From: Pyrrhoderma lamaoense
Taxonomy: Eukaryota > Basidiomycota > Agaricomycetes > Hymenochaetales > Hymenochaetaceae
DNA length: 64,000 nucleotides
Assembly: GCA_002794735.1 (NCBI GenBank)
Contig: NBAZ01000039.1
Coordinates: 1 to 64,000 of the forward strand
Reading direction: 5' to 3'
The notes beneath the pieces were generated by a model. It worked only from the letters and a program-made list of their open reading frames with translations, searched no databases and was not told the DNA's origin. Below, piece by piece: positions 16,566 through 51,875 of this stretch. Every line of letters starts with the position of its first letter. The first letter of the stretch is position 1. The position numbers and the translations under genes were made by a program.

Positions 16566-16594
16566 CCGACTCGGACATCCACAGAGTATAAAAT
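16566..16594 (+). promoter_or_regulatory. CCG-N3-CGG plus TATA box of the first small Gly-rich gene
   Basis: CCGACTCGG at 16566-16574 is followed 12 bases later by TATAAAAT at 16587-16594, 89 bases before the ATG. The same pair recurs before the genes starting at 19403, 20723 and 33686. Confidence 0.6.
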
Positions 16595-16675
16595 ATCGAG
16601 AGCGAAACTGAGAAAGTCCAACAGCTTCAAATACCTCGATCTGAAATACTTTTGAAGATCTATATCATCTACACA

Positions 16676-16888
16676 ATGTCTTCTTCTCAATGTGGTACTG
16701 GAAATAAGAATATTCACACTGGCAACATCCAAGGTAGCTCTTATTGATATCTCATCCTTATACACTCTCACATGCTTGTCTCTGTTACTACTACAGGTGG
16801 TACTGGTGGTGCCGGTGGTAACGCAACTGCTGGTCCTGGAGGACAAGCAAATGCTGGATCGGGTGGAGGAGGCAACATCAGTTTCTGA
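16676..16888 (+). CDS. Small Gly-rich protein 1 (49 aa, array family, short type)
   Basis: Exons 16676-16733 and 16797-16888, phase-1 intron, 49 residues. Exon 1 encodes a polar head with GTGNKNI and TGNIQ; exon 2 a Gly/Ala tail ending GGGGNISF. The head GTGNKNIxTGNI and the ending are almost the same as in the gene at 20502-20723, and the tail pattern recurs at 19205-19403 and 33686-33890. There is no signal peptide, cysteine array or membrane segment. No known family is recognised from the sequence; reading it as a real gene rests on the conserved splice site, phase, start and upstream motif across at least four diverged copies. Function unknown. Confidence 0.72.
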
Positions 16889-17822
16889 TAGTGTAAGCTC
16901 TGATTATTTCCCTACAATCTCTAACGACTTACATTATATCAACCATCAGCCAGAGTCGACTGCATGATACTCTGTCAATGGATCAGCATGATGATAGTGT
17001 CTTGTCGTAAAGAGTTTTTGTAATGAATGAAATATTATCTGTTGAAATCACACATGAGAATCTAGTTACAATAACAATGCCAAGCCACAGATTGCCGCAT
17101 TCACACTTGATAATGAGGTTTTTGCACGGCGTAAAACCACACTCAGCTTAGGCCAAATAAATAAGAAAACAATGTGTAGCACCGAGAAGACATGTGAGAT
17201 GTTCGTCCATAGAACAACGTTATACCTCCTGTCATTTTCATGCAAAGGTAACAATAGTATCGCCATTGCAGTATCTCCTTGTGTTTGCATCTTACACAGT
17301 TTTCGGGGCGTGTATGTTTATCTTCATGTCGCAGTGTTATACACTTCAGTATTAACAGAGATCCAGGATGTAAGCAAGACCGAGCAAAGTGGTAGAAGAG
17401 AGTGAATATAGGATTGGAAATTGAAGGTAGTGTGTACGGGCCTAATCCAGGCCTCATCGAGGCCACAGCTTATAGAAAATAACAATGTCTTGGATGTATC
17501 CTACGGTGATTATTAGTGGGAATTATTTGTCGTACTATACAAACCGCACAATAAAACATGGCCTAATTCAGGCTTCAACCACTTACCTCGTTACTATGGT
17601 AAGCTTGGTCTTAAGCCTACCATTAGTATCAGGAATAGTGAAACAGATCGACGTCCAATTCCAGGAAGTGGTTTCGAGTCCACCATGATTCTTAATCCCT
17701 TTGACGCGTAAAATTGATTGTTCTGCATTCTCTGTGTCGTTCCTTTCTATCATAATTGTTCTCTCCTATCAAAGGTATTCTTCTACTTCTTTGTTTCCTC
17801 TGAAATTTACCCACGCATTGGA
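16889..17822. other. Spacer with short diverged repeats
   Basis: Contains two related short stretches, near 17438-17470 and 17558-17600 (GGCCTAATCCAGGC and GGCCTAATTCAGGC), which look like a small diverged repeat. No gene is supported. Confidence 0.35.
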
Positions 17823-17830
17823 TATAAATA
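17823..17830 (+). promoter_or_regulatory. TATA box of the gene at 17920
   Basis: TATAAATA, 90 bases before the ATG, the same distance as in the other array genes. The CCG-N3-CGG element is not present here. Confidence 0.5.
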
Positions 17831-17919
17831 TGTGGTGGATTCACCACCTTGCTAACATACATCACCACTTTCATACCCCCATCTACATCCGTATTTTCTT
17901 TCCAACACACATCAACACA

Positions 17920-18281
17920 ATGCCCATCTATCAAACTGGAAGCAATTGCTCAATGAATGTTGAGGGAGATGTAAATTACGTTACTGGACATCAGACTGTT
18001 ATTCATCAAGGCAATGATACTATCACATATGTAACCACCCAAGCAACAGGTAAGCCAAATCGTCTCTCATAGCTTATCTAGCTCACAATATCCTATCGTA
18101 GCTGCAAGTAACGGTAACAATAGCACTTCCCAGACCAGTAATAGCAGTCAACACACCGCTGGAGGTGAATCCTCCGGCAAAACCCAACGAGAATTGGTGG
18201 GAATCTTGTAAGTCTTATATCAATCCTTCGATCTCTCACATCCCGCTAAAAACTCGATGATCTCGTTTTGATAGTTCCTGA
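17920..18281 (+). CDS. Small Asn/Ser/Thr-rich protein 2 (array family)
   Basis: ATG at 17920, exon 1 to 18049, phase-1 intron, exon 2 from 18102. Head MPIYQTGSNCS matches the MPxxQTG heads of the genes at 31326 and 32440, and VNYVTGHQTV sits where those have YNDVAGNQ. Exon 2 is rich in Asn, Ser, Gln and Gly. Reading straight on stops at 18211 (...VGIL). A strong GTAAGT donor at 18208 with an acceptor ending 18274 would instead end the protein ...VGIFS at 18281, closer to the family's hydrophobic-Ser ending, so I extend to 18281. About 77-78 residues either way. No signal peptide; function unknown. Confidence 0.6.
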
Positions 18282-19204
18282 GGAATGGGAAAACTAGAGA
18301 TTCATATATAGATTGATTTTGCTCTAATAATAGAGAAATATGTATGTCAAGGCTAAGATTTCGAGACACATAGAATTATACTAGTAATTTTGAACGTCTG
18401 ATATTGAGAACAGAAGAGATAGTGTATTGTCTCTGTTATCGCACAAAAGTGGTACAGTATCCAACTGGTATCAGTTCGTGAGCTTGAGCAGTCGTATCAT
18501 TAGAGCAAGTCAAGTATGTGATAGATTCTGTCCAATTAGGGATTAACAGTATATGCTACATGACAATCTGTAAGGAGAGGTGGTCGTGAAAGCTCTCTAA
18601 CATAGTATAATGAATGCACACGCTAGAGTCTAGTAATGTTGTAAAGATACTTTGGTTCCCGGTTTTCGCACCACCGACACTGTCCTCAAGATTATACTAC
18701 GCCTAACTATCATTACTCGATGTTCTCTGAGTTTATGCTTATCCCAATATGACGATCTCTTACACTTCGCTTCATATGTAAGAATAATATAGCTTCAGTA
18801 TAATTCAAGAAAAGACTACTTACCGTTGAAAGCAGCAGACTTGTCAAACCATAGCACTACTACATTGCGACGAATAAATTAGTGACCCAATAATCACGCT
18901 ATCATTACTATGCAATTACTGATACATCAAACCACACTCTTAATGATATCTCCGTACAAGTGGGAAGAGCTTCCACAGCTTCTCATATCATACATTGAAG
19001 TATTTATTTCCACTCTTTACCGCTAGGCGTCGTTTATGCCTATACTTTATACCGTGATACTGAGATCAACATATATCAATTTATTCTTCACAATGAATCT
19101 CTAGCTGACTACAACTTTTACATTAGATGACTTAGAGGCGCGCTGGGAGTCTGAAAGTCTATTTAGAGAGATGAGTGGTGTTTATAAGTGATTAGCTTAC
19201 ACCC
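18282..19204. other. Spacer, nothing recognised
   Basis: AT-rich sequence with no open frame of note and no clear similarity to other parts of the window that I could see. Confidence 0.35.
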
Positions 19205-19403
19205 TTAGAAGGTGATATCTCCTCCACCGCCTGATCCGGCTGTAGCATTACCTCCAGGTGCAGCAGTAGATGCAGTGCCACCGGTACCTCCTTTTCCACC
19301 TATAGCGATGAAAGTGAGAAGGAGAGTGATCAGAAGCTACTTAAATTGAGTCACCACTGATATCTCCAGTTTTAATGATCTTGTTTTCAGGACTGTCAGA
19401 CAT
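19205..19403 (-). CDS. Small Gly-rich protein 3 (47 aa, array family, short type)
   Basis: Minus strand, exons 19403-19355 and 19299-19205, phase-1 intron, 47 residues. Exon 1 carries ENKIIKTGDIS, the counterpart of GNKNIxTGNI; exon 2 is Gly/Thr/Ala-rich and ends GGGGDITF. The splice falls at the same codon position as in the other two-exon members. Too short for a simple longest-frame search, but supported by the conserved structure and upstream motif. It looks complete; function unknown. Confidence 0.72.
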
Positions 19404-19484
19404 GTTGTGTATTGAGACCACGTCAAATCGGGTGTTTCACGAAGTAATTATAAAGATGGGTATGACTTACTGAGACATTGCCTG

Positions 19485-19515
19485 TTATTATACAAAGGCT
19501 TTGTTTCCGGTACGG
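19485..19515 (-). promoter_or_regulatory. CCG-N3-CGG plus TATA-like box of small Gly-rich gene 3
   Basis: CCGGTACGG at 19507-19515 lies 14 bases upstream (on the minus strand) of a TATAATAA at 19485-19492, which is about 82 bases before the ATG at 19403. Confidence 0.5.
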
Positions 19516-20501
19516 AAAATTATAAGCAACTTGAATCCCTTTATGGTAACGTCACACTGTAATGGATAAGGAAAGAGTGTATATAGTAGCTATTTTACCG
19601 AGTACAAGGCGCCTGGGTCTGATTCATATTCCTCTCACAGAATAAGGGAACGCTAAAGAAAAAGAAGCTCCTGTCCTGAATGGATCCCTCAAAGTATCTT
19701 CAATGCAAATGTTTTTAATTCGACGCTCATATGAAGCTTATCCATACTGGGAAACTTCTATTCCAGTCCTTAAGCGAAGAGGTTACAGTCACCGACGATA
19801 GGGACACCTTGTTTATAAGTCAGGGATTACTCCGTATTGTAATACCTCAAGGGTATTCCGAGCTGATCTGACTACTATCAAAGCGGAACAAAAACCTTAC
19901 TGTGAGCTTGTTGTCGCAACTTATTTATGGTCTTTATGTAACTCAAACACCATCTTAGACGGGTACTCCGTTCCTGATTGTTTGCTCTTCAGTTATACAA
20001 GTACTTAAATTGAGAAATGGCTATATCCCCTTCTGAAGCATGCATCGACTGTGCCGTTTGATTCCGAGTCTATCAATATCATCTATAACCATACTTGTTT
20101 TTAAATAGGATGGGTATATGTTCCAATATCCATCTACAAAACAAATTTTTAAATACACCTATTAATTACTGTGATACTTGTAGCATAAGTCGGTCATCTT
20201 ATGGCGAGCGTAGTGGTTTAGACACTAGTGAAACTATGATGTGATAGTCTTCACACACAGAGACAGAGTATGTAGCAAATCTAAGAACTTAGTTGGTGTA
20301 TATGTTTTAAGCAGGAAAGGCGCTCAAAGTCTAGTTATCGAGAGATTTTTCAGCAAATATTGATTTATTCTCATATAAAACATTCAAATTCAATTACAGA
20401 AATATTTCCATGTCGCTACAATGTGCACATATTCAAGTGTACTGTTTAAGAAGGGATCCTTCAGAGACTTGGTACGTGGATAAGAGAATTGGCTTACGAG
20501 C
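19516..20501. other. Spacer, nothing recognised
   Basis: About 1 kb between two minus-strand small genes. No gene, RNA or repeat copy seen. Confidence 0.35.
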
Positions 20502-20723
20502 TCAGAAGCTGATGTTTCCTCCTCCACCTGACCCAGCATTGGCAACTCCTCCGCCAGTGCAGGGATTTCCAGTTGCTGAAGCATTACCACCAGCACCACC
20601 AGTTCCACCTACATGTTATAGATCAGTAAAGCTCGGACATATCTGTCTATGTAAAGTAGTGTTACCAGTGATGTTTCCAGTGGAGATGTTCTTGTTTCCG
20701 GTTCCGGACTGAGTAGATGACAT
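20502..20723 (-). CDS. Small Gly-rich protein 4 (54 aa, array family, short type)
   Basis: Minus strand, exons 20723-20666 and 20608-20502, phase-1 intron, 54 residues. Head MSSTQSGTGNKNISTGNIT is nearly the same as that of the gene at 16676 on the opposite strand. The exon 2 tail is GGTGGAGGNAS followed by a six-to-seven-residue insertion containing the only Cys, then AGSGGGGNISF. Conservation of both exons against a copy 4 kb away in reverse orientation implies selection on the protein or recent duplication. No targeting signal; function unknown. Confidence 0.74.
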
Positions 20724-20801
20724 GTTGTTTAGACGGTTGAAGTGAAAGTATAGATGTATGTTGAGGCTGTATTTGTTGAGTTTCCTTGATTACTTCCCAT
20801 G

Positions 20802-20828
20802 TTTTATACTTTTCTCTGTCCGATACGG
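20802..20828 (-). promoter_or_regulatory. CCG-N3-CGG plus TATA box of small Gly-rich gene 4
   Basis: CCGATACGG at 20820-20828 and TATAAAA at 20802-20808 (minus strand), 11 bases apart; the TATA box is about 80 bases before the ATG. The flanking sequence also matches the gene 1 promoter (ATNCCCCGNNTCGGACA). Confidence 0.58.
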
Positions 20829-22116
20829 GGAATTTCGAGTGGTGCCATTCTCAAATGCGGAGCATATTACTGCAATTCCATTCGATTACATGGATCAATC
20901 CGTGAATGAATGGGGAGATAAGAGATTTAGTTTGTCATTGTGCTACCGCTAGCAAGTCCCTATTCTGTGCCTTCCAAGCCAAGATGTCCATGCTTCTATG
21001 TGAAGGAGTAATTAGTTATTTTGTGAGAATCCGTGAGTAGTAACAAGATCCTAATATGCATTTATGCACACATACAGGCGCACACTGGAAGTACTACAAG
21101 CTCATGCATACCCTTTTACACCGTGATAGTATTATCTAGGTGGTTCTAAGCTATACACTTTGAGTGTGGAAGGCTATACAAGAGTTTGACAAAGGGAATC
21201 TCAATTTCGAAGCAGAAACAAATAATAAGTGACATTTTTACTTTGTGGGTAAGGCTTCAGCCGTTTGTAGCCAGACAATGAGAAAATATCTATTACCTTC
21301 CACAATGCATGGATAGGGTGTGACTCGATGAATGGAAGGTCTCAAGACAAAAGATGATGTAGATGGAAATTTCATTCTTCACAGTCCATCTGTAAAGTGA
21401 GATATGCTGACCAGTTATCGGAATCGAATAGTGCCGATATATTTGAATTATATGTGACTTCGGAGCAATTTTTGGATGGAGCTCCCCTATATAGTGACTG
21501 AATGAGGGTGCTCAGTGTAAAGGACAATTAAACCTTGAGCGGAAGTGTATAGGATTTGATGAGAATACTTCCGTTGATACAGCTGGGGTTATGTAAGTAA
21601 CAGAAGTAGCCTAGAGTATTCTACACGAAGATACAATCCTTTTCAATCGTATCCTGTCTGCTCACCTCCCTTCTGTAGTTATAGGACTATCATGTACCTT
21701 TGTTCTAATCCTGGTATCAAAGTATCAAATGCATCAACAGTAGTTCAGATGGCGTACACCTTTTCTTGCATTCAAGAGCATTGTAGCATGAAGCCCACCT
21801 CGGGGCTAATAGAGGAATAAAGGCAGATAGCAATAGTTTCTCGATTTGATAGGGACGAGGGGTGAGTGAGAAGATAACTAGGACATGAGGCATGTAAGGG
21901 AACTAAAAACATGATATTTAGCAGCATAAAGTAATCTAATGAGAAGATGAGCACACATAGAGACATTTGTGTGGTTAATCGAATAGTACACCTTCAAAAC
22001 GACTCGAATGTCAATATACATGTAGGTATACGAAAGAACACAAGACACATTTGCATAAACGAATGTTTCCTCAGACTTAGGCGAGAAATATTCAGAAAGC
22101 GTTCATTTCCCTTCCA
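20829..22116. other. Spacer without supported genes
   Basis: Short open frames at 21772-21966 (-) and 21947-22138 (+) have no recognisable content. The right end runs into a duplicated block. Confidence 0.35.
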
Positions 22117-22179
22117 GCAACCAGAACGGCACCAATAATCAAATAAACAGTACGAGTCCAAAAACCAGAACAGAAGTAG
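22117..22179 (+). pseudogene. 3' fragment of the Asn/Pro-rich array gene
   Basis: A short piece ending ...CCAGAACAGAAGTAG matches the last about 65 bases of the gene at 26053-26902, followed by a shared downstream flank. The rest of that gene is missing here, so this is a truncated copy. Confidence 0.6.
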
Positions 22180-22768
22180 CGAATATGATATTACCGTGCT
22201 AAGTACGTATGGTCACATCATACTCTTCAATAGTTCAACTTCTTGCTAAAAGTAGCTTTGCATATTATCCTTTCTTCTACCTCCTTAACTTGATAAATCA
22301 GAAAAATTCAAAAGACGCGTAACTTGAGAAGCGATACTGTGAAGTTAAAATCCTTATCGTAGGCTTTACGTGAACTAAAAATAACTCATAGCAGAGACAA
22401 AATAGAGGTCTAGAGACGATCCCGGGGTTTCAGCACAATTTGTTGCAGACAAGCGCATGCTTAAGTGCTAAAAATAGAGATTACCTAGCAACGGATTGTC
22501 AATCTTGTGCTTGTTATAACGAAGATAACGTACAAAAGCCTCTCGAATAACTCTCCATTCGTGAGCAGTCTCTAAGCTTTTTATCACCTCTGTATAGCGT
22601 GAGTAACTCATATACGTCAGGATAGACAGTCATACCTGTATGGAACGTCAGAGGAGATAAATTCAGTGGCAAGTTATCACGACTCACTCCAGGGTAGAGT
22701 GAATTGGTATGCGCATGTATAGTGCGTGATCTGAGGCTTAGACGAGAGCGAGAAGACCATTTGTGTAT
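22117..22768 (+). repeat. Direct duplication, copy 1 (partner 26840-27480)
   Basis: Shared blocks include CAACTTCTTGCTAAAAGTAG, AATTCAAAAGACGCGTA and GGCGATACTGTGAA-like sequence in the same order as in the partner. The copy is diverged by substitutions and small indels and stops where the LTR-like element begins. Confidence 0.7.
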
Positions 22769-23365
22769 TGAAAATTTGAAAATTTAACTTTACGTCAGGG
22801 TTGGACATTTTAGTCGTACTTAGAGGGAGAGCACGGGGTTTAGAGTCTGCCTACACCAGATACGATGCTCAGGATAAGATTTGAGGGCTAAAAAGCGAGA
22901 TACTCGACCTCGGCCGGAGTGTAGAGACTGATAGAGACCTTGAGGCGAGCCGAGACTTCACAGACCAGTAAAAGCAGTAGAAGCATATAGAACAGAGCAC
23001 CGACCGAGGCTGTGACTTGAGACAAAAGTGTATATATTTCAGTCCATCCGGACGACTTGCAGTCTAATAAGCAGCGGAGTAGTAGATAAAGAGTACAGGC
23101 TGATATCAGAGAGATACTTCGGGGGGGGGATAAACTGGAAAGTAGTTAACTGATTGAGGGGAATTCACTGATTTTTTTCGGCCTCAAGTCTGGAGGCCTA
23201 TATATCAAAACTCGAGATAAAAATAGATAATAAGGGAAGCATGTTTTCCAGGTGACTATATGCCACTGGACGAAAGGTTCAAGTTATCAGAAACGAGGAG
23301 GCCATATAAACGAACCCTATCCTCGAGTAAGAATAAGGAATGAAGTCAAATAGTAAGAGAAATGG
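22769..23365 (+). mobile_element. LTR-like element, diverged and 3'-truncated copy
   Basis: Starts TGAAAAT and follows the elements at 51133-51871 and 39723-40440 through GGGTTTAGAGTCTGCCTACA, GATACTCGACCTCGGCC and AAACGAACCCTA. It loses similarity after AGTAAGAGAAATG, before the CA end seen in the other copies. More substitutions than the other two, so older. Confidence 0.65.
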
Positions 23366-23516: not shown

Positions 23517-25695
23517 GGCCCACAAGTTTTTGTTTCAATAAAACAGATGACATTCCGGAAATAAGACAAGTATTACTACAATTGATTCTACACAATGGGG
23601 CGTAGGGTATTACAGATGATCAGCGATAGTATGTATGTGATTACGAGAGTATCCCTAAGGGTACCTAAATACATGAGAAAGCGGTTAAACCGTCTTCAAT
23701 ATCAAGGATGTGAGGAGTCGTGCAAATTCAAAATTATTAATTTAAATAACATTATTGCTGACTAATCATATTCTTACCTAATTGTACTCCTTTGGAAAAA
23801 CTTCAAAAGGCACACAACCTATGATAATTCTATCACTGACATGTAAATCTTAATCCCATCGCACTGCAATACTATATATATAACTGTACTGTTGAATTGA
23901 CATACCAAAAAATTCCCCTATAGTGAGAAATTCTTATAGAAAAACCCAGAAATATGCTAGAACTGCACTTATAGATAAATCAAGGAGATCAGAGCTTGAT
24001 AGCCCATAAGATTTACTCGTCGGCGGAGAATTATCATGTATAAACTATTTCCTAATGATCATACATGCTCACGGATAACGAGCCTCGTAGAAAACCACCT
24101 CTGAAGAGAAGATATCGAGAATATAGTGCTCTATAGATACGAAGTCAGGTGTGAAAACTATGGCAGTGATAGAGGGAAATTATAAAACTACCGAATGGGA
24201 GCTGAGGAAGATCATGAACATCCGTTGCAGGATGCAGGGAGACATAAGTGGAAGTAAGCCATAAAATCTCAGTCGCAGGTACGCACACTAGAAGTGATTT
24301 TTACCACTTATCCGAGTTTCTCTGCTGATTATCGTGGGAATCAACGCTGAGAACTGTAAATCACATAGTATCATGAACGTTCAGGAAGGATGATTAAAGC
24401 AAGAACAGCATACAACAAGACACTAAGTCTCAAGAAAATAACTCTTGAACGTAAGCAGAGGTTGAAATCAATATTTTGAGGCACAGAATAAATCAAGGGG
24501 TACTTCAACAACAGAAAAAGTGTGTACAAACTCGGCGAGTGCAGAAATAAGGCGAGGAATTCGACAAATTATTTGCCCTTAATCGATCAATTTGAAGAGT
24601 TTCATTACCAGTGTTTCTCGCTTCCCTAAATAACGATAATACATGTATCTTGGTACACGACGAACTTGCTTTCTATAGCTTAAAGCGTGAAACCGTATGA
24701 TACGATGATAGTCTGGTAGATGCTCAGACAATCGCGATCACAAAATATGCTTAGTGACTTTGTGATATCGGATTTGGGACTCAAGTTGGAGTGAATTCCA
24801 AGGGCAAAAGCACACATGTAACACCCTCACGGAGATATTATTGGTAGATCTAGACATATATCGTTTTCCTAACTTTGGCAGTTCTATAACCGGAAGTGGT
24901 GGAGAGGCGGTTCAGGAACAGGTCCCAGCCTCGGAGCAATTGCCGGTGGTTTAGGAAGCGGTGCAGAAGGAGGGGCAGGAGGCAGTGTCAACATCTCCTA
25001 ATAGTCTCCTCCTAAGATGGTTATCTCTGAAGTATCATACAAACTTAGTCTCTAATTTGTTTTACTGCAGCATCATCGTGTAATCAGATTGTGACAGTGC
25101 AAATAGAATTGTAAGTAGATAAATAGGCATGTGACGTGGATTCAAACGGCTTGGGTGAATCAAATCTCAGTAGTATGTGGAAGGTTCAAACTAGTACATG
25201 TAGTTCATGGTTCCGGAGATGATCCGATACTAGACTGTATTAGCCACCATCATCCAATTTTCTGGGGTTCTGAGATAATGATTCTGTTCAAATATAGTGA
25301 AAACGTTCCCCGTAGCTGTGAAGAGCTGTGCTGGTATGACAAGACCAATTTCATCTCTGTCCTTAGTCGAGTGTCACGACACAATAGTACATGCGGGGCC
25401 GCCAGGCACTAGTACATAAGCGATTTTTTCCTCAAACCCAAGTGAGAAGATCCAAAAAGCGTACAGTTCCAAGCTTTCGTATACCCACTTGTATGAAAGA
25501 TATATCCCTGAAGATAAAAACATTCGCCATAATCGTATAGATATGCGGAGTGGTCTCAGGGATGGAAGATCACTCGTTTATTAAAATAGGAAGACAATGA
25601 TGTTTATGGTAGAGAGTAAGGGTACATGCACCATATAAGGCAAAAAACGGGAGTAATCGATAACCGACGGAACTAAAGAGAGCACGTACTTTTTT
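23517..25695 (+). repeat. Segmental duplication, copy A (partner 29963-32290)
   Basis: More than 2 kb in the same order as copy B: begins GGCCCACAAGTTTTTGTTTC, includes CTCGTCGGCGGAGAATTATC and the array-gene exon 2 relic, and ends in the block around GAGAGTAAGG. The first kilobase is nearly identical to copy B by eye; the later part is more diverged. Outside the relic exon I see no gene; the frame at 25131-25412 is not supported. Confidence 0.85.
24884..25001 (+). pseudogene. Array-gene relic: exon 2 only, exon 1 deleted
   Basis: Matches exon 2 of the gene at 31326-31606 (CTCGGAGCAATTGCCGGTGG and AGTGTCAACATCTCCTAA are shared). The acceptor has changed from TATAGCC to TATAACC, the frame is shifted after TGGTGGAG, and the first exon is gone between about 24820 and 24880. 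It cannot make the family protein. Confidence 0.72.
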
Positions 25696-26052: not shown

Positions 26053-26902
26053 ATGCCTTTTAGCCAGTCCGGTGACAATAACAAAGCTAATTTTTACGGG
26101 AGCTACAATGATGTCCAAGGCAATCAATCCAATATCACAGACTCCAGAAACGCAAACCAGAACAACTGGGGATCTAACAACTGGGATCTAACAACTGGAA
26201 TTCTAACAACACAAACTCCAACAATGTGAACTCCAACAATCATAATAGTAATAACACCAACTCTAATAACCACAATTCTGGTAATACCAACTCGAATAAC
26301 CAGTCTCCATACGGTCCCATGCACTCTTTTGGCAATTTCCATCCAGGCCTCCCTTATCATAATAATTACCCACCCGGCCAGATTAGTAATCCCTACATGT
26401 ATCAAGGATTTCCTGCCCAGATGTTTCCTGGACCGTTTATTCCTGGAAATCCCTATCAAAACCCGACTCATCCTAGTCAAAACTTCCATAATCAACAATA
26501 TCCCAGTAACCCTAATCATGGCAATTTATGGTCCGGTGGTCAAAATCCTGGTAGCCCCATTCCCATTCCCAACCCCAATCCCAATATTTCCCATCCTTAC
26601 CCCGTTCCCAATTCCGCTCCCAATTCCATTTCTAGTCCCAGTCCCAACCCCAACCCCAATCCCAGTCCCAACTCGGCTCTTGATCTCAATTCTACTCCTA
26701 ATCCAACACCAATCTTAACTCTGGTCTTGATAAATCCCACCCCGATTCCAGTCCCCATCCTAATGATACCTACCCCAGTCCTAACCCCAGTCCAGCCTCC
26801 AGTCCCAATCCTGGCAATGCTAATCGACCCATGTCCACCAACCAGAACGATTCCAATAACCAAGCTAAACAGTACGAGTCCAGAAAACCAGAACAGAAAT
26901 AG
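26053..26902 (+). CDS. Asn/Pro-rich low-complexity protein 5, large array-family member (frame-disrupted as given)
   Basis: ATG at 26053. The first about 40 residues carry the family head MPFSQSGDNNKANF and core YNDVQGNQSN. Then come NNW and NSNNTN-like repeats, a Gly/Pro/Phe-rich middle (YGPMHSFGNFHPG, PFIPGNPYQNP), a run of PNPNPNPSPN repeats and a polar, charged end. As written the first frame stops at 26217 and the long second frame (26226-26972) turns unnaturally hydrophobic after 26700. Adding one G to GGG at 26183-26185 (the neighbouring repeat has GGGG) and one C to CC at 26703-26704 makes one frame to TAG at 26900-26902, about 280 residues with consistent Asn/Pro/Ser composition. Either a young pseudogene or assembly errors. 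Composition is prion-like (Asn/Gln-rich, low charge); function unknown. Confidence 0.6.
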
Positions 26903-31325: not shown

Positions 31326-31606
31326 ATGCCTTTCAACCAGACTGGTGCCAATGCCAAAGCCGATTTCGGAACCTACAATGATGTAGCAGGCAGCCAGACA
31401 AACAACTCAAAGGATATCAAGACCGGAAATATCTCTGGTGCGTCCACTCGTATCTAAACATGTTGGATTTTCCTGATCTTGACACTTCTATAGCCGGACA
31501 TGGTGGAAGCGGTGGTTCGGGAACAGGTCTCGGCCTCGGAGCAATTGCCGGTGGTTTAGGAAAGGGTGCAGAAGGAGGTGCAGGAGGCAGTGTCAACATC
31601 TCCTAA
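31326..31606 (+). CDS. Small Asn/Gly hybrid protein 6 (74 aa, array family)
   Basis: Exons 31326-31437 and 31494-31606, phase-1 intron, 74 residues. It combines both sub-family features: the head MPFNQTGANAKADFGTYNDV followed by AGSQTNN as in the Asn-rich genes, then KTGNIS at the splice and a Gly-rich tail (GGSGGSGTGLGLGAIAGG, ending GGSVNIS) as in the Gly-rich genes. It is therefore the link showing that the two types are one family. The gene at 32440 has the same exon lengths (112 and 113 bases). No signal peptide or membrane segment; the Gly/Leu/Ala stretch is only mildly hydrophobic. Function unknown. Confidence 0.75.
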
Positions 31607-32439: not shown

Positions 32440-32713
32440 ATGCCTTTCAATCAAACTGGTCCTAACGCTCAGGCGAAATTCGGTACCTATAATGATGTAG
32501 CTGGCGATCAAGTCAACAATACTCGTAATGTAACCACAGGAGATATCACTGGTATGCTTCTTAATTGTAGAAAAGACAAAGCTAATACGTCTCTGTATAG
32601 CCGGAAGTGGTGGTAACGGTGGTTCAGGAACGGGACTAGGACTCGGACTTGTCGCTGGAGGCCACGGTACAGGTGGAAAAGGTGGAGCTGGAGGCTCAGT
32701 AAACATCAAATAG
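32440..32713 (+). CDS. Small Asn/Gly hybrid protein 7 (74 aa, array family)
   Basis: Exons 32440-32551 and 32601-32713, phase-1 intron, 74 residues, tandem with gene 6 and of identical exon lengths despite many base differences. Head MPFNQTGPNAQAKFGTYNDV then AGDQVNN, TTGDIT at the splice, tail rich in Gly with LGLGLVAGG and the end GGSVNIK. Length conservation with changed bases argues for selection on the protein. Function unknown. Confidence 0.75.
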
Positions 32714-33685: not shown

Positions 33686-33890
33686 ATGTCATATACTCAA
33701 AACGGTTCTGGGAACAAGATTATAGTCACTGGAACTATCACTAGTAACTATCATACATATATGATAGTAATTGTTTCTCATTTTTGCGACTATAGCCGGT
33801 AATGGTGGTAAAGGCGGCGACGCTTCAGCGGGTTCAGGAGGTCAAGCCGTAGGAGGGGCAGGTGGACCAGGAGGTAGTATCACCTTTTGA
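33686..33890 (+). CDS. Small Gly-rich protein 8 (50 aa, array family, short type)
   Basis: Exons 33686-33743 and 33796-33890, phase-1 intron, 50 residues. Exon 1 (58 bases, the same length as in genes 1 and 4) encodes MSYTQNGSGNKIIVTGTIT; exon 2 encodes TGNGGKGGDASAGSGGQAVG and ends GGSITF. The splice position, the head and the ending agree with genes 1, 3 and 4. No targeting signal; function unknown. Confidence 0.74.
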
Positions 33891-35333: not shown

Positions 35334-35552
35334 CTAGGAAATGTTTATACTTCCACTGTTATTACCATGTTTGGCTCCAACGATTCCACCGTTTATGACA
35401 TTCTTTGGTTGTGTTTGATTCGTATTGTTGGAGTTTTCGTTCTTAACATTGTTCGTAGTGGAATTGTCATTTGAAACCGTTTGGTTACCCGCAATATCGT
35501 TGAAAGTCCCGATGTTCGTAGTACAGGTACTGCCATTCATATGGATCGGCAT
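35334..35552 (-). CDS. Small Asn-rich protein 9 (72 aa, array family)
   Basis: Single open frame from 35552 to 35334 on the minus strand. Head MPIHMNGSTCTTNIGTFNDI then AGNQTVSN, a middle dominated by Asn/Thr/Gln, then IVGAKHGNNSGSINIS. The G(T/R)(F/Y)ND(I/V)xGNQ core matches genes 5, 6, 7 and 13 and the SINIS end matches the SVNIS end of gene 6. No intron is needed. A TATA-like box (TATAAAT) lies at 35631-35637, 79 bases upstream. Cytosolic, Asn-rich, function unknown. Confidence 0.72.
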   Translation of the reverse strand: MPIHMNGSTCTTNIGTFNDIAGNQTVSNDNSTTNNVKNENSNNTNQTQPKNVINGGIVGAKHGNNSGSINIS

Positions 35553-35637: not shown

Positions 35638-35640
35638 TCA

Positions 35641-39722: not shown

Positions 39723-40440
39723 TGTAGGACCAGCCAAGTGTTTGGCCGGTCGTAGTGCATTTATAATGCACTTTCTGACTCGCCCGGGAAGTCCATTTCT
39801 ACTACTCGGCCGCGCGCCTGTTTCATTTCTCTTACTATTTAGCTTCACTTTCTACTCTTACTCGAGGGTAGGGTTCGTTTATATGATCCTCTCGTTTCTG
39901 ATAGATTAAACCCATCGTCCAGTGGCATATAGCCACCTGGACGCCATGCTTTCCTTACTACCTACCCTTTATCTCGCGTCTTTGCTATATAAACCTCCAG
40001 ACTTGAGGCCGTAGGGAATCACTTAATTCCCAGCTACTCCTTTTGGTCACTATCTTTCTACCCCCGAGTATCTCTCTAATAGTCGCCTGTACTCTTTATC
40101 TACTGTGCTGCTTTATTAGTCTGTCCGGGCGCGCTTGTAACGCTTTGACCGTACTGCAAGTCGTCCAGATGGACTGAAATATATACACTTTTGCCACAAA
40201 CTACAGCCTCGGTCGGGGCTCTGTTCTATACGCTTCTACTACTTTTACTGGTCTGTGAAGTCTCAGCTCGCCTCAAGGTCTCTATCTTTCTCTACCGTCC
40301 GGCCGAAGTCGAGTTACTCGCTTTTTAGCCCTCAAATCTTAGCCTGAGCATCGTTTTTGGTGTAGGCAGACTCTAGACCCCACGTCCTCGCCACTAAATA
40401 CGACACGAAGGTCAAAATCTGACCAAAAGTCTAGTTCTCA
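39723..40440 (-). mobile_element. Solo LTR-like element with 4-base target duplication
   Basis: 718 bases bounded by TG...CA and flanked by TCAC at 39719-39722 and 40441-40444. The related stretch near 46620 reads AAACTCACACTATTCG with no insert, which is an empty site. The element at 51133-51871 is the same family in the opposite orientation. There are no terminal inverted repeats beyond the TG/CA ends and no coding sequence, as expected for a solo LTR. Confidence 0.85.
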
Positions 40441-41113
40441 TCACACTATTCGATGACCGGACTTGTATAGAGTAAATTTTTAAATGATGTAGATTCTGAA
40501 CACGCCAAACCCTCGAATTTGTTATCGATCGATACAGACGAAATCTCGCAAACAAAAGATATTGTACAGAATTATATGATACATAATGGTAGCTTGTGAG
40601 TGATTCATCGACTTCGGAAGTATGGTCTTCTACACCAAGGCGTATCATCATACTGGACAGTTACGATTGTAAGCGAAAAACTGGTATTTATGAACTTATA
40701 GCTCACAGTACATGTCTTAGTTTAGAAATCCATCTCCCTTCAATATCAATATGAAACAAGGTGATCGTTGATATTCTCTTTAGAAGCACTAGAGTATATA
40801 AAGATCTGTATACGATCTAATGTAGTATGTTACATACCGGAGTGGTAATTGCAGAACTAGGAAGATTGGACATCTCCGTTAATGTTACCGGAGCTATCGC
40901 CGGTATTGACACCAGTGTTGTAAGCATTCTTTGCTTGTGTAGTGTTGTTGTTAGTGAGATTATTTGTAGTATTGATAGAGTTGTTCTTGGAATCAGTGTA
41001 GATTGTGTTCGTTTGCTGGCCAGAATGTGATTAATATATGTACCTATTGTGACACTACCCGCAGTAATGGTAGTGCCATTATAGTTGAACGAAGGACCCC
41101 TATTGTTTGCCAT
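40441..41113 (-). repeat. Inverted duplication, left arm (right arm 41397-42120)
   Basis: The arm holds gene 10 and its 3' flank, and matches the right arm in reverse complement almost base for base over long stretches, for example around GTATCATCATACTGGACAGT. Similarity continues past the LTR-like insert to about 39600, so the insert entered one arm after or without the duplication. The loop between the arms is 283 bases and holds the two divergent promoters. Confidence 0.88.
40857..41113 (-). pseudogene. Small Asn-rich gene 10, frame broken
   Basis: Minus strand. The frame from ATG at 41113 reads MANNRGPSFNYNGTTITAG and GTYIN as in gene 12, then leaves the family frame; the expected SGQQTN, NTTNNLTNNN, TQAKNAYNTG and GDVQSS all follow in another frame up to TAG at 40857-40859. 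One extra base after ATTAA (about 41030) would restore it. As written it would make a chimeric protein ending at 40817. Either a pseudogene or a base-call error; the sister gene 11 in the other arm is intact. Confidence 0.65.
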
Positions 41114-41224
41114 TGCAACGGTTTATTACAATATTTGGACAGTGGTGTCGTAACACCAGAAGAACACTTTTGAGAGTATCTCCTTTCGTAAAAGACACGG
41201 GAGGTTTGTGCTTACCTGAAGCCT

Positions 41225-41300
41225 TAGAAATTTCCCATCCATACCAACCCTATAGTCACATGAGGATAGGAAGTTTCCGCGGATCTAGGTAGTTATAATT
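41225..41300 (+). promoter_or_regulatory. Upstream element and TATA box of gene 11
   Basis: GGAAGTTTCCGCGG at 41269-41282 is followed 11 bases later by TATAATT at 41294-41300, 97 bases before the ATG. A second GAAATTTC lies at 41227-41234 and could serve the divergent gene 10. GGAAGTTTCC fits nGAAnnTTCn, the heat-shock-factor half-site pair. Confidence 0.55.
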
Positions 41301-41396
41301 TTCCCATGTCTTATCACAGAAAGAAATATTCTCAACAGTATTCTTCTGGCATAACGGCGGTTACTCAAGTTATCAAATTTAAACCAAGCAGTTTCA

Positions 41397-41660
41397 ATGG
41401 GTGTTACTGTCCACTATAATGCCCCGTGTAGTGGCCCTAGCGTTATTGCGAATAGTATTACATTTGAAACATTCACCGTTTTCGGGTCACATTCTGGCCA
41501 GCAAACGAACACAATCTACACTGATTCCAAGAACAACTCTATCAATACTACAAATAATCTCACTAACAACAACACTACACAAGCAAAGAATGCTTACAAC
41601 ACTGGTGTCAGTACCGGCGATAGCTCCGGTAGCATTAACGGAGATGTCCAATCTTCCTAG
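41397..41660 (+). CDS. Small Asn-rich protein 11 (87 aa, array family, long Asn type)
   Basis: Single exon, 87 residues, intact. Begins MGVTVHYNAPCSG, continues with ITFETFTVFG, then the conserved SGQQTNTIYTDSKNNSINTT, NNLTNNNTTQAKNAYNTGVS, TGDSSGSINGDVQSS. From SGQQTN onward it is nearly identical to gene 12 and to the out-of-frame part of gene 10, while the N-terminal third differs. That is an unusual pattern: variable N-terminus, conserved C-terminus. No signal peptide. Divergently paired with gene 10 across 283 bases. Function unknown. Confidence 0.74.
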   Translation: MGVTVHYNAPCSGPSVIANSITFETFTVFGSHSGQQTNTIYTDSKNNSINTTNNLTNNNTTQAKNAYNTGVSTGDSSGSINGDVQSS

Positions 41661-42120
41661 TTCTGCAATTACCACTCCGGTATGTAACATACTACATTAG
41701 ATCGTATACAGATCTTTATATACTCTAGTGCTCCCAAAGAGAATATCAACGATCACCTTGTTTCATATTGATATTGAAGGGAGATAGATTTCTAAACTAA
41801 GACATGTACTGTGAGCTATAAGTTCATAAATACCAGTTTTTCGCTTACAATCGTAACTGTCCAGTATGATGATACGCCTTGGTGTAGAAGACCATACTTC
41901 CGAAGTCGATGAATCGTTCACAAAAGTCATCAATGTATCGTATAATTCTGTACAATATTTATTATTTACGAGAATTCATCTGAATTGATCGATGTCAGAT
42001 TCGAGGGCGTGTTCAGAATCAACATCATTTAATCATTTACTCTATAATCAAGACCAGTGAGCTATCAGTAGTCGCGCGAATGAGGACGACACAGGCGATA
42101 AAGAGTGATGGTTCTACCCA
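41397..42120 (+). repeat. Inverted duplication, right arm
   Basis: Reverse complement of 40441-41113 and, beyond a small deletion near 42060, of the sequence left of the LTR-like element (GTCCTCATTCGCGCGA). The deletion has removed the bases that correspond to the element's insertion site. Confidence 0.85.
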
Positions 42121-44629: not shown

Positions 44630-44636
44630 GGTTTGA

Positions 44637-44643: not shown

Positions 44644-44728
44644 TGGACCAGTTGAGAGCGAATACTATCAGCAGTCCCTGCTACAGAAACTCCTTACAAC
44701 TATACAGCCGCTACACTACACTGTCATC

Positions 44729-44941
44729 ATGCCGATGAATAACAATGGCAATGGCGCTGTGAACGTCGGGCGTTACAACGATGTTGGGGGCAACCAAGTG
44801 AACAACTATGATAAACGCGTTGTAAACAAAAACGGTGTCAGAAACTACAACGGAGACCAAGTAAACGCAAAGAATGTCGCAAACGGTATAGTTAAAGGTA
44901 AAAACAATGTCCATAACGATGGAAATTTCAACTTTTCCTAG
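44729..44941 (+). CDS. Small Asn-rich protein 13 (70 aa, array family)
   Basis: Single exon, 70 residues. Head MPMNNNGNGAVNVGRYNDV then GGNQVNN, a second NGDQVNAKNVANG segment, and the end NVHNDGNFNFS. Core and ending follow the family; the protein is more basic than gene 9 (KRVVNKNGVR). It is the inverted sister of gene 9, and the proteins have diverged far more than the flanks, which is worth noting. No signal peptide; function unknown. Confidence 0.72.
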   Translation: MPMNNNGNGAVNVGRYNDVGGNQVNNYDKRVVNKNGVRNYNGDQVNAKNVANGIVKGKNNVHNDGNFNFS

Positions 44942-46610: not shown

Positions 46611-46978
46611 TTGATCTGAATCTCAAACTCACACTATTCGATTGCTGGATTTGTATAAAGTAAACTTTTCAATAATATGGATTCTCACAAACAATAATCA
46701 CGATACATAAACGAGAGGAAGTGTGTATTTCACCGATTTGCATCGGAAGCATGATCACGGTAGAGCGTGTCATCTTACTGAACACTTCTAAGAGTCAGTG
46801 AACAAATATTGTTTTTGGATTTATAGTTCACAGTACCATGTCTAGCTTTGCAATCTATCTCCCTAAAATATCAAAATGAACTGAGTTGATCGTTGCCATA
46901 CTCTATTAAAGTAATAGTAGTGTAAGATTTTATAGAATAGAAAGCTCAATGGAACATACCGGAGTGGTAGTTGCAGAA

Positions 46979-47254
46979 CTAGGAAGATTTGACATCTCCG
47001 CTAATGTTTCCGGAGTTGTCACCAGTATTGATACCAGTATTGTAAGCATTCTTTGCTTGTGTATTGTTATTATTAGTGAGATTATTAGTAGTGTTGATAG
47101 AGTCGTTCTTGGAATCGGTGTAGATTGCGTTCGTTTGCTGGCCAGAAAAAGAGGCGTAATTGGTGTATGTACCAATTGTGATGCTCTTCGCAATAATGCT
47201 GGTGCCACTCCACGAGCCATTATAGTTGACAGTAGCACCTGTAGTGTCTGACAT
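46979..47254 (-). CDS. Small Asn-rich protein 12 (91 aa, array family, long Asn type)
   Basis: Single exon on the minus strand, 91 residues. Head MSDTTGATVNYNGSWSGTS, then SITIGTYTNYASFSGQQTN, NSINTT-like NDSINTTNNL, NTQAKNAYNTGINTGD and NSGNISGDVKSS. It is the intact counterpart of the broken gene 10 and shares the C-terminal two thirds with gene 11. The KNAYNTGINTGD segment also recurs in gene 14. Function unknown. Confidence 0.75.
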   Translation of the reverse strand: MSDTTGATVNYNGSWSGTSIIAKSITIGTYTNYASFSGQQTNAIYTDSKNDSINTTNNLTNNNNTQAKNAYNTGINTGDNSGNISGDVKSS

Positions 47255-47339
47255 TATAGCGGCTTATCGTAGCAACTTGAGTAATTGTCGTTATGCCAGA
47301 AGAATACTGTTGATAACATTGTGATAAGACATGGGAAAA

Positions 47340-47363
47340 TTATATAGATCCGCGGAAACTTCC
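47340..47363 (-). promoter_or_regulatory. Upstream element and TATA box of gene 12
   Basis: On the minus strand GGAAGTTTCCGCGG (47363-47350) is followed by TATATAA (47346-47340), 86 bases before the ATG. Compared with gene 11 six bases between the two elements are missing. Confidence 0.55.
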
Positions 47364-47720
47364 TATCCTCATGTGACTATAGTGTTGGTATAAGCTAAGT
47401 CTGCTTCCATCAAGAGTGATATATTGAATTTGGCTCACATAATTCATTTGTTTATTCATCTATGCGCGTCGATAATCCTATGAAAAATTAAGATCACAAG
47501 AAATGAGCACATAGTTCAGATATTACACACATGAGTGTTAGTGACGTTGGGCATTTTGATATCCCGATAGTATATAGTGAGTACCCATGTACGTCATATA
47601 TTTGACGCAAACCCTGCTCACTACGGGCTCATGAGAAAGAACGCACCTTATTAGAAACGAAGGATATTGCGATTTTAGCTATCTTCATCACCGTTAGATA
47701 TTCTAATTCTGGTTCCCGAT

Positions 47721-47833
47721 TCCATGAATGACTCCAATAATACTACTAATAATCTCCCCAATAAACACAATACACAAGCAAAGAACGCTTACAACACTCT
47801 AAAAGCATCAGCGATACCTTCAAATCGTCCTAG
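47721..47833 (+). pseudogene. Relic of an Asn-rich array gene
   Basis: Reads SNNTTNNLPNKHNTQAKNAY followed by NTLK, then loses the family sequence before TAG at 47831. Divergent to gene 12, as gene 11 is to gene 10, so it is probably the decayed second arm of an older divergent pair. Its 3' flank (47960-48070) still matches the flanks of genes 11 and 14. Confidence 0.65.
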
Positions 47834-48700
47834 AGCTGTAACACCTCGTCAAACGACTCATATTTAATTCAAATTCATGTATTCTTGCGATGACATTTAC
47901 TTCTACTTTTGAATGATATGACAGTGATCACTCTATTTCATAAGGATATTGAGAGAAGCCGTATAGTAGAGTAAAGATATGGTAATGTGAATTATGATTA
48001 CCATAGATATATTTTGCTCACTGACTCTCAAAGCTATCCAGTAAGATGGCACGCTGATTGTAGAAGATTACGATTCCGCTTTCAATGGATGCTCCATTTA
48101 CAAACTAACATCTACATATCTGCTATTTGTGCTCACAAAACCGTCCTTTATTTGCTTGCCTCTACGGTCATGAGGATATCACAAATAAAATGAGGATTAT
48201 AATTCCCAGACTTGCGGGCTACGCATTGAATCCCTGCATGTACGGAGACTACACAATGCAATCAATTCATCTGTCTATCCATTTCCTTTCATAATCAGAT
48301 AGAGAGTCCGGAAACATCAGTACTCCTATCAAAAAAGTGACCAAAGCTTTCTAAATACCCTTACAAAAGGTAAGGAGGCTGCGAGGAGATTAATTCTCAT
48401 CAAAGTATAAAACAGGTGTACGAGGGACGAAAACAGAAAAGACCATAGGTGCAATAAAATTTACTCTTATATCCGAATTCATAATTTTTGCCTTTTTATC
48501 TATATCAAAAGGTGAAATGACGTCAAAATGGGAAACTACTCTAATAAGCTGGTCTCCAGCAATCTAACGAGCTCATACCTGTAACGGGATGCAGTAACAA
48601 AAGCTACTTTAATGTCTTAACACTAGTGTACACAGTGGCTAATTGATCATGAACGACAGATGGTAGAGACCCTACTCTCTATACTTCGTTATGTTACACT
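47834..48700. other. 3' flank of the relic and spacer
   Basis: The first 250 bases resemble array 3' flanks. The rest shows no feature; the frame at 47987-48193 is not supported. Confidence 0.35.
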
Positions 48701-49744
48701 TCACGAGAGCTTCTTGTTATCGTGTGAAAGACACGTGAAAGACATCTTTTTATCTACGGTCTTTTCGCCCTCAATGGTTGTTTTCCCTTTAACAACAAAG
48801 CCTAAAGTCTTATAAAACTCGACCTAAGCTTCAAGTAAGCTACCCTGACCCTATGTATACGTAAGGTATCTATCCCCATTGACTTACTGGGCCGGCTTCA
48901 AGAGTCAGCCTCTTGTTTCTATCATGGTCCTCATGTGATGCCTACTTATGATTAAAATATCAATCTATCAGAATCAGTGACTCCAACACTCACCTCTTCC
49001 ATTACTTCTCTGATGAGCTTAGATCCGATTCCTCCTCGCTGGTGTGTCTTAGAGACTCCGAGAAACTGACAATGCCAAGAATCTAGTTTAATATTAGGAT
49101 CTTCAAGAGATTCATCCGTGAGCTTCCTATACTTGGGGAAGAACTTGTGCGGGACTTTAACAATCAAACAACAAAGCATGATGCAGATCCTATACCTCTT
49201 CTAGCCACCACGATGGTAGACCTGGAATTTTTTTCTTAGCTTTCTCTGCAAATCTGTTGAACGCCGCCATCTGTTCTTCATTAGCAATACTGACACATCA
49301 TATCAATTTATATCCCATGCTCAGGATCAAAAGGCGACTCACGACCCTAGCCATTCTTCTCCTGGTCCAAACCAGACCGCCGACCCTATCACAACCGATT
49401 TCTGTGTTTCCGCCACATATACCTTACCTCCAGAGAGTCCACTTTCTAATATCCATCGATGATAGCAAGGCATTAACTCCATCTGACCACAGAAGAAGCT
49501 CTTTTCTGAAATCGATTCAAATCAGTAATGACTTTTAAGAAATTCATACAAAGAAGCTACCTCCCAGGGGATAATCATTGTACCCAAATGCATCATTCAT
49601 GCAGTTTATTGTTGCGGTTATATCCGCCTCTATTATGAGAAGCTTCAGAGAATTATTTTTAAAATAGGAAGGGAGCAACAAACCTGAAGCAGTCTTTTCA
49701 AGGCGGCGTATGATTATAGTATACGGCTCTTCTTGTATGTTCAT
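48701..49744 (-). CDS. GNAT-family N-acetyltransferase
   Basis: Minus strand, start MNIQEEPYTIIIRRLEKTAS at 49744, stop TGA ending at 48701, with about six introns. Seen: an acceptor-side domain with ATINCMNDAFGYNDYP and VVIGSAVWFGPGEEW, then LDSWHCQFLGVSKTHQRGGI followed by GSKLI, which contains the acetyl-CoA-binding R/QxxGxG/A motif (QRGGIG), then LTLEAGP spliced to VEFYKTLGFVVKG. Known: GNAT enzymes transfer acetyl from acetyl-CoA to an amine. Fungal members with this layout often look like polyamine or antibiotic acetyltransferases, but the substrate cannot be read. Odd: the splice after WWLEE (49195-49196, CC) is out of phase by one base; an extra G on the coding strand would join it to VPHKFFPKYRK. 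An upstream in-frame ATG at 49825 exists. Confidence 0.8.
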
Positions 49745-50620
49745 CTCAGAAATGGGTAACAGGGTACAAAAGCTAGTATGTAGTATAAACTGAACAATCA
49801 ACGAAGAAAGATATATCGAGCCCATCTTTTATATACATGACTGCGGCTTCTTGCTTGATCTAGTATACAAGTATACGGTATATGATTAGAATATCGGCCG
49901 AATCATATTGCGCTTTAATTCCCATGATACGAACGGAAATACAAATACATACTCTTCTTCTTAATTTGAAGGTATATCCGCTATTGATCATAACGATAAA
50001 AGCTTCATTTTTGTACTTCTTATCAGTTTGTTCCGTGTGTATCGGTCATTTTTAAGCTTTAAACAAGTAAAAGACTGAATATAATATAGCACAACTTGAA
50101 AGATTCTCCTATCGTTTACCCATATGTCTTCTGATATTCCAACCATATAAGCAGAAAGCTTAGATGCTATCCATATAGCTTATTCACTCTTGCTTAAGTA
50201 CATGACTCTTAACAGTATTTAAAGATCTACTACAAATAACTTGAATAGAGGACTTTGGTCTAATCTAAAAGCATGTACTTCAAGCACATAAGTCTTATTA
50301 TCTGGGGGTCCTGTCTTCGATATTTTGCACTCATAAACCAGCAGGTTAGATCCATCTAGGACTTGATATATTCGCCCCTTTGACTTTTACACTTCACTAT
50401 ATAGAGAAGTATAGATAGAGTATCACGCTCAGAGAGGCATCAAGATTGTGGTTTTTCCTACTTACGTATGTCTTTCCGTCTTTTGTGAATATGCTGTAAT
50501 GATAGATGTGAGTCAATCGTTTTAATCATCTCACGTAAGCGTAATTAACATTAAAATATCATACCTGATGGAAGTAACCCCAGCTTGTGCGAGCCCGATA
50601 GTCACATAAGGAATAAAATA
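49745..50620. other. Spacer between acetyltransferase and gene 14
   Basis: Divergent promoters are expected here. No gene supported. Confidence 0.4.
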
Positions 50621-50654
50621 GGAAATTTCCGCGGCTCCAAGGAAGTATAAAATA
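50621..50654 (+). promoter_or_regulatory. Upstream element and TATA box of gene 14
   Basis: GGAAATTTCCGCGG at 50621-50634, 11 bases before TATAAAATA at 50646-50654, with the ATG 86 bases further. Spacing equals that of gene 11. GTCACAT further upstream is shared too. Confidence 0.57.
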
Positions 50655-50740
50655 CCCGAATTTCTTCACGGAAGGATATATTCTTGACAGTATCCTTCTG
50701 ATATAACAACGCATACTCAAATCGACGATAAGCCGTTGCA

Positions 50741-51034
50741 ATGGCAAACACTGGAGGTTTTTCCTTCGTCTTATACACTGCAAGTAGTGTAACACATGTT
50801 GGCGATACGACTGTCACAAATAATGCCATCTCACTAATTGCAACCGTGAACGATGACTCTTCTTCTTCTAGTACCCTTACAAACGCAATTAACACCAATT
50901 CTAAAAATAATACGAAAAGTAATGATAAAAACCTCGTGAACAATAACAAAACGAAAGCAAAGAATGCTTACAATACTGGAATCAACACTGGCGATGATTC
51001 TGGAAGCGTCAACGGGAGCATCAAAGCTTCCTAG
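50741..51034 (+). CDS. Small Asn-rich protein 14 (97 aa, array family, long Asn type)
   Basis: Single exon, 97 residues. N-terminal half MANTGGFSFVLYTASSVTHV and a Ser-rich loop are unlike genes 11 and 12; the second half NSKNNTKSND, NLVNNNKTKAKNAYNTGINT, GDDSGSVNGSIKAS is clearly the same module. So within this subgroup the N-terminus varies and the C-terminus is kept. The 3' flank is interrupted by an LTR-like element at 51133. No signal peptide; function unknown. Confidence 0.74.
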   Translation: MANTGGFSFVLYTASSVTHVGDTTVTNNAISLIATVNDDSSSSSTLTNAINTNSKNNTKSNDKNLVNNNKTKAKNAYNTGINTGDDSGSVNGSIKAS

Positions 51035-51132
51035 TTCTAAATTACTTCTCCGGTATGCTCCAAATCATATTCCAGCTTATACACACTTAAAATAGTAGCT
51101 CCTTCAAATGATTATAACAGTAACTAACCCAT

Positions 51133-51871: not shown

Positions 51872-51875
51872 CCAT

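Follow-up and report, generated by a model that had tools for sequence, protein, structure and literature searches.

What might a crowded array of very small glycine- and asparagine-rich genes contribute to a mushroom-forming fungus? The question is raised by bases 1-64,000 of contig NBAZ01000039.1 (hereafter C39) of Pyrrhoderma lamaoense, whose genome comprises 30.65 Mb in 72 contigs; this entire stretch of 64,000 nucleotides is referred to as the window. A first-pass annotation had listed 14 gene starts between positions 16566 and 51100 and had described them as a family unlike anything else. We labeled these genes g1 to g14 in the order of their starts and placed their introns by hand, using sister genes as a guide. 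The presumed isolation of the family does not hold, as the N-terminal head of several members is the first exon of the NACHT-containing NOD-like receptors (NLRs) encoded by the same genome. The value of the array lies in this connection with the receptors' first exons and not in its abundance of glycine or asparagine.

The head comprises the N-terminal ~37 residues (MPFNQ.G...GTYNDVAGNQ.NN). A genome search with g7 yielded 56 matches at E ≤ 1, seven of them in the window and 49 elsewhere; each of the 49 outside matches fell within residues 1-44, and 15 reached E ≤ 0.001. We fetched 25 of these 49 outside loci, and all locus counts given here refer to these 25. In 24 of the 25 loci (including the one that supplied the query frame), the head runs on into a NACHT-containing frame. 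The NLR that was followed furthest (L051 on contig C30) displays, over successive open frames, first the head plus NACHT (E = 1e-10; NPHP3_N, E = 9e-23) and then WD40 repeats, and on much of C30 head matches recur every ~8-9 kb. At the 25th locus (L033; a near copy is present on C33), the head is followed by a longer Asn-rich frame.

The same relationship is seen from the side of the receptors. A tblastn search of the window with one NLR recovered, at E ≤ 0.01, only the heads of g7, g5, and g6 (8.6e-7 to 3.2e-5). When a profile of 17 NLR heads was compared with a profile built from g6, g7, three outside relatives, g1, g3, and g4, the two matched with E = 6.7e-19 (99% probability); against g9/g12 the value was E = 3.2e-9 (96%), each of these being a single comparison. 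The position at which the head ends also agrees. A GTRAG donor-like site is present within bases 80-160 of 18 of the 25 head loci, each with a phase-1 site at base 109-130, while control 80-base stretches further down the same loci contained GTRAG in 22 of 250 cases with mixed phases (9/6/7); the donor of g6 and g7 lies at base 112, likewise in phase 1. At the NLR head introns, acceptors were identified by visual inspection in 17 loci. The head loci are related to each other and are thus not independent proofs; nevertheless, exon sharing is the natural reading when head sequence, exon end, and phase are considered jointly, and sequence comparison demonstrates both the homology of the heads and the match in exon and phase. 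Hence, five of the listed genes (g5, g6, g7, g9, and g12) carry an NLR head homologous to NACHT NLR N-termini, which in the four intact carriers (g6, g7, g9, and g12) is joined to Gly- or Asn-rich sequence, not to NACHT.

Apart from these genes, we noted a head followed by a longer Asn-rich body at L055 (793, plus strand) and L056 (minus strand, 973), where no NACHT-frame match was seen within 1.6 kb. The genome possesses a very large NACHT NLR repertoire, with at least 111 matches (108 of 313 candidates scored) on C14, C24, C28, C30, C35, C43, C44, C46, C47, C57, and other contigs. Frame breaks that we had noticed just behind the head in many NLR copies fall in the probable intron, and the idea that these copies are broken there was withdrawn.

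The members of the array and its decayed fragments are as follows:

16676..16888, plus strand: g1, 49 amino acids; exons 16676-16733 and 16797-16888; short head and Gly-rich tail; copies on C16 and C62
17920..18211, plus strand: g2, 79 amino acids; two exons; divergent head; fast-changing
19205..19403, minus strand: g3, 47 amino acids; two exons; Gly-rich tail
20502..20723, minus strand: g4, 54 amino acids; two exons; short head and Gly-rich tail
24897..24998, plus strand: decayed fragment of the g6 type, tail exon only
26053..26902, plus strand: g5, NLR-type head, then a long N/P/S-rich stretch; frame-broken twice
31326..31606, plus strand: g6, 74 amino acids; NLR-type head exon of 112 bases, phase-1 intron of 56 bases, and Gly-rich tail exon
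32440..32713, plus strand: g7, 74 amino acids; NLR-type head exon, phase-1 intron of 49 bases, and Gly-rich tail exon
33686..33890, plus strand: g8, 50 amino acids; two exons; short head and Gly-rich tail
35334..35552, minus strand: g9, 72 amino acids; one coding exon; NLR-type head and Asn-rich body; probable intron in the 3' untranslated region
40857..41113, minus strand: g10, frame-broken relative of g11/g13
41397..41660, plus strand: g11, 87 amino acids; Asn-rich type
44729..44941, plus strand: g12, 70 amino acids; NLR-type head and Asn-rich body; probable intron in the 3' untranslated region
46979..47254, minus strand: g13, 91 amino acids; Asn-rich type
47718..47798, plus strand: decayed fragment of the g13 type
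50741..51034, plus strand: g14, 97 amino acids; Asn-rich type

The array is real, and it is partly decayed. All 14 annotated starts were found in the window, and 12 of the genes encode intact proteins of 47-97 amino acids, so that a multigene array of small genes is indeed present at the listed positions. Two members are broken: g10 carries a frame shift relative to its sisters g13 and g11, and g5 can be read only through two frame changes and is therefore a broken gene, not the long working gene of about 280 codons that had been annotated. The expected decayed copies are represented by the two fragments listed above. The description of the region as otherwise gene-poor is not fully right, since a 159-codon open frame without a Pfam match is present at 27892-28371.

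Four groups can be distinguished. Group A (g6 and g7) possesses the full head and a Gly-rich tail; group B (g1, g3, g4, and g8) has a related tail and the same splice phase, with the head shortened; group C (g9 and g12) combines the full head with an Asn-rich body; and group D (g10, g11, g13, and g14) is the Asn-rich subgroup at 40-51 kb. In addition, g2 belongs here as a divergent member, and g5, which has a head, is broken. Copies of the same block on C16 and C62 likewise contain group B. Searches of the genome with g13 and with g12 gave matches in this window only. The first-pass annotation had united all of these genes in a single family. Related heads, tails, and endings are indeed found among them, and the groups defined by the head and by the Gly-rich tail are well established; group D is linked to the head only weakly.

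We tentatively favor, at somewhat less than even confidence, the reading that the small genes with a head represent the N-terminal signaling exon of NLRs in stand-alone form and that their products would join the heads of activated NLRs in a common assembly. In the pair g6/g7, a phase-1 intron separates the head exon from a Gly-rich tail exon, which takes the place of NACHT; g9 and g12 continue from the head straight into an Asn-rich body; and g1, g3, g4, and g8 retain the tail and the splice phase with a shortened head. The head, which sits at the very N-terminus of the NLRs studied here, where signaling motifs are located in fungal NLRs, would act as a homotypic, probably amyloid-like assembly motif. 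Through it, the small proteins may enter assemblies of activated NLR heads and, as soluble modulators or adaptors, either restrict or propagate them; sequence does not tell dampening from amplifying. Amyloid formation, partnership with NLRs, and the direction of the effect are all inferred. Among the functional guesses that had been left open, prion-like signaling or defense is favored because the head links to NLRs, and it is unproven.

A different view would treat the gene products as low-complexity proteins in their own right, with a structural or stress function (Gly-rich helices or condensates) and the head as a general localization or assembly tag devoid of an immune role. Their composition is compatible with it (30-35% Gly in g1, g3, g4, g7, and g8; 30% Asn in g12), as is the failure to predict a stable fold for g6 and for P0010, a g13-type (group D) outside relative. 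Nonetheless, we consider this view unlikely: outside the window the head is found almost only at NLR starts (in 24 of the 25 loci followed up, out of 49), and matches to the Gly-rich tail at E ≤ 1 were, among the best candidates scored, confined to this array and its copies on C16 and C62.

Shared gene architecture had been put forward as a sign of expression and selection. The phase of the introns is indeed uniform: g1-g4 and g6-g8 each have one intron of 49-63 bases, and it is in phase 1 in all seven; g9 and g12 have no intron at the head end. The shared TATA distance is likewise borne out: 11 of the 14 genes (all except g3, g10, and g11) have the sequence TATAWA between −110 and −60 relative to the ATG, as compared with 7.3% of 1358 other ATGs of the region (binomial P ~9e-11, calculated over genes that are related and hence not independent). 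Of the 25 head loci outside the window, 9 likewise have TATAWA at this distance. In g9-g14, a GTATGT donor-like site (GTATGC in g14) follows 18-19 bases past the stop codon, and g9 and g12 have in common an acceptor-like TTTTCAG.

Purifying selection is evident in several comparisons. Within the window, the ratio of nonsynonymous to synonymous substitution rates (dN/dS) was 0.15 for g6/g7, 0.14 for g1/g4, 0.21 for g1/g8, 0.43 for g11/g13 (P = 0.014), and 0.33 for g13/g14, rough values since several of these pairs (g6/g7 and g1/g4 included) have a dS above 1; g1/g4 and g6/g7 are pairs for which the first-pass annotation had proposed this calculation. Head exon and tail exon of g6/g7 are each constrained, the proportion of synonymous differences (pS) exceeding that of nonsynonymous ones (pN) in the head (0.74 vs. 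0.20; P = 8e-7) as well as in the tail (0.58 vs. 0.20; P = 3e-4). Contig C16 carries a copy of the block with g1-g4 that is 82-87% identical in DNA over its long pieces. When g1, g3, and g4 were pooled and compared with their C16 copies, nonsynonymous changes (7/328) were rarer than synonymous ones (12/116; P = 6e-4) and than differences in flanks and introns (318/1941, a count taken from a region comparison in which the border between the g3 intron and exon 2 is off by two bases). The claim that the members are under selection thus stands for g6/g7, g1/g4, pooled g1/g3/g4, g11/g13, and g13/g14, and not for g2 and g9/g12. In g2, nonsynonymous change even exceeds flank change (28/166 vs. 40/621; P = 7.5e-5), a pattern that fits diversifying selection or a conversion tract. 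The first exon of g2 (17920-18211) is 80% identical to that of its C16 copy (L048, 5288), as against 98% identity over the 100 bases preceding the ATG; the two copies end in different frames.

These data bear on the possibility that the small genes are by-products, that is, duplicated NLR first exons followed by a downstream open exon, weakly used or neutral and with no role in NLR assembly. Two of the 14 genes are broken, two further fragments are decayed, the g9/g12 ratio of about 1.8 (not significant) gives no hint of constraint, and the array is rich in local duplications. In this array, g10 and g11 stand head to head (40640-41877), and each arm matches the g13 region (46765-47391) in opposite orientations, so that the two look like an inverted duplication. 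What speaks against neutral debris is the purifying selection in pooled g1/g3/g4, g6/g7, g1/g4, g11/g13, and g13/g14, the placement of TATA in 11 of 14 genes, and the existence of relatives in other fungi; we judge this explanation to be rather unlikely.

Evidence for expression centers on g6, whose spliced product is identical to the outside protein P0001 over all 74 residues. P0001 stems from a 1146-base contig of a source labeled 'lgn'. Extra residues are present at the intron position in P0005, P0006, P0008, and P0009, and P0006 (listed as 'lgn,ena') reads through its intron; the source pipeline thus seems not to splice, and P0001 probably derives from complementary DNA. This suggests that g6 is transcribed and spliced, so that the annotated claim of expression gains support for one member. 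The annotated relatives are hypothetical proteins of Pyrrhoderma noxium (73 amino acids) and Agrocybe chaxingu (70 amino acids). Our searches of the literature on basidiomycete amyloid NLRs, Agaricomycetes NLRs accompanied by small proteins, stand-alone motif or decoy proteins, NLRs of Pyrrhoderma and the Hymenochaetales, the P. noxius/lamaensis genome, and Gly-rich families turned up no description of such small proteins, and their unreported status rests on these searches alone.

Several features of the neighborhood deserve mention. A block at 13942-22347, which contains g1 and the end of a FAD-binding/cytochrome b5 (fumarate-reductase-like) gene, is found on C39, C16, and C62 (L048; L050) with 82-93% DNA identity; in the C16 copy, only the end of the FAD-binding/cytochrome b5 gene was matched. 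A non-coding-looking repeat of ~0.6-0.75 kb (72-86% identical) occurs in the window at 22776-23364 (plus), 39723-40440 (minus), and 51129-51873 (plus) and also around the NLR unit on C30 (L051, 880-1468 and 8762-9496); it is possibly a solo long terminal repeat. Scans of the window against Rfam and for tRNAs gave no matches. Upstream of the array (1-11000), open frames match Peptidase_M19, AMP-binding enzyme, ICMT, and tryptophan halogenase, and perhaps represent a natural-product cluster. With AMP-binding-, ICMT-, and halogenase-like frames upstream of an array of small genes, one may think of precursors of secreted peptides, mating pheromones, or peptide natural products. We disfavor this idea as highly improbable: unlike basidiomycete pheromone precursors, which end in a C-terminal CaaX box, none of the 12 intact window members has one, a single KR/RR site was found among all 12, and the head is common to NLRs, which the survey discussed below treats as intracellular (PMC9815663).

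How does the array compare with described signaling systems? Stand-alone copies of a signaling module from NLR pathways are known from the PYD-only and CARD-only proteins (POPs and COPs), some of which regulate assembly; these are folded, death-domain-like modules. The mammalian proteins (PMC7555848) offer a functional analogy only; the head described here looks unfolded and has no death-fold Pfam match above the cut-off. Closer parallels are found among fungi. In mushroom-forming fungi, NLR N-termini are often short and of obscure purpose, and sections of a 2022 survey report amyloid-like motifs there with few candidate partners (PMC9815663). Among these, the meta-family NLR05/08/22/29/44 (Wojciechowski et al. 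2022) comprises amyloid-like motifs that usually sit very N-terminally on basidiomycete NLRs and for which the survey's table gives zero neighboring or effector partners (PMC9815663); the candidate partners it describes genome-wide are few, HeLo/MLKL-like, equipped with C-terminal motifs, and confined to single species (PMC9815663). By description, our heads would resemble this meta-family in being short, very N-terminal on Agaricomycetes NLRs, and present in dozens per strain. They differ in that partners described in that part of the survey carry C-terminal motifs (PMC9815663), whereas here the stand-alone small proteins bear the head N-terminally. Judged by position and description, the head could be such a published motif. 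With the HET-S/NWD2-type pairs (HRAM, sigma, PP, and PUASM), the array shares a short motif common to an NLR N-terminus and a separate protein; it differs in that no NLR gene lies in the window and in that an amyloid nature of its head is putative.

A number of observations weigh against a role of the small proteins in NLR assembly. In the pairs of the HET-S/NWD2 type, according to the portion of the survey that treats them, the partner carries its motif C-terminally and has an effector domain (PMC9815663); here the head is N-terminal in both proteins, and none of the 12 intact small proteins has a Pfam match above the cut-off, just as had been annotated. No NACHT match is present in the window, and C39 is absent from the 111 NACHT matches listed (best 108 of 313 candidates scored). 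Seven of the 25 NLR loci lack a donor by the GTRAG pattern, and two of the 18 with one show an additional phase-0 candidate. In g1, g3, g4, and g8 the head is without its central part, and the ties of g11, g13, and g14 are weak: the profile of these three and one outside relative matched the NLR heads with a non-significant E of 0.12 and g9/g12 with E = 3.7e-4 (36% probability). Taken singly against their C16 copies, g1 (P = 0.27) and g4 (P = 0.21) are not significant, while g3 is (P = 0.001); g9/g12 (dN/dS 1.77, loosely aligned) and g2 compared with its counterpart on C16 (dN/dS 2.5), neither significant by itself, display no purifying signal. The transcript origin of P0001 is itself deduced, and the last residues of P0002 differ from the Gly-rich tail. 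Twenty-four heads searched against Pfam gave no entry above the cut-off, and a PDB profile search with heads gave one chain (E = 0.46 over 16 residues), which we took as chance. AlphaFold proposed no confident fold, with a mean predicted local distance difference test score of 48.8 for g6 (as P0001) and 35.2 for P0010; such low model confidence fits disorder or assembly-dependent structure and proves nothing. Three weak Pfam matches below the cut-off (g1 to DUF992, g14 to DP-EP, and g8 to Leader_Thr) were likewise attributed to chance.

The Pfam result also bears on the proposal that the small proteins are effectors, executioners triggered by NLR heads, e.g., through membrane insertion of a Gly/Leu stretch. 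The tails of g6 and g7 do contain a short GLGLG(A/L) stretch, and the head is common to NLRs; this stretch is absent from g1-g4, g8, g9, and g11-g14, and with no domain match above the cut-off we regard an executioner function as very unlikely.

We thus return to the reading of the small genes as stand-alone NLR signaling exons. If the head belongs to the published motif group, the small proteins would be its natural partners, carrying the same motif and no receptor part. It is conceivable, although we hold it to be doubtful, that such arrays encode the missing soluble partners of basidiomycete NLR amyloid-like motifs: exon-shuffled head-only proteins that would signal, or be regulated, by N-terminus-to-N-terminus templating and bear Gly/Asn-rich tails instead of effector domains. 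For the NLRs of mushroom-forming fungi, the array offers candidate partners or regulators in the form of a multigene small-protein family that has the NLR head exon, is under purifying selection in several comparisons, and consists of members small enough to escape ordinary gene prediction.

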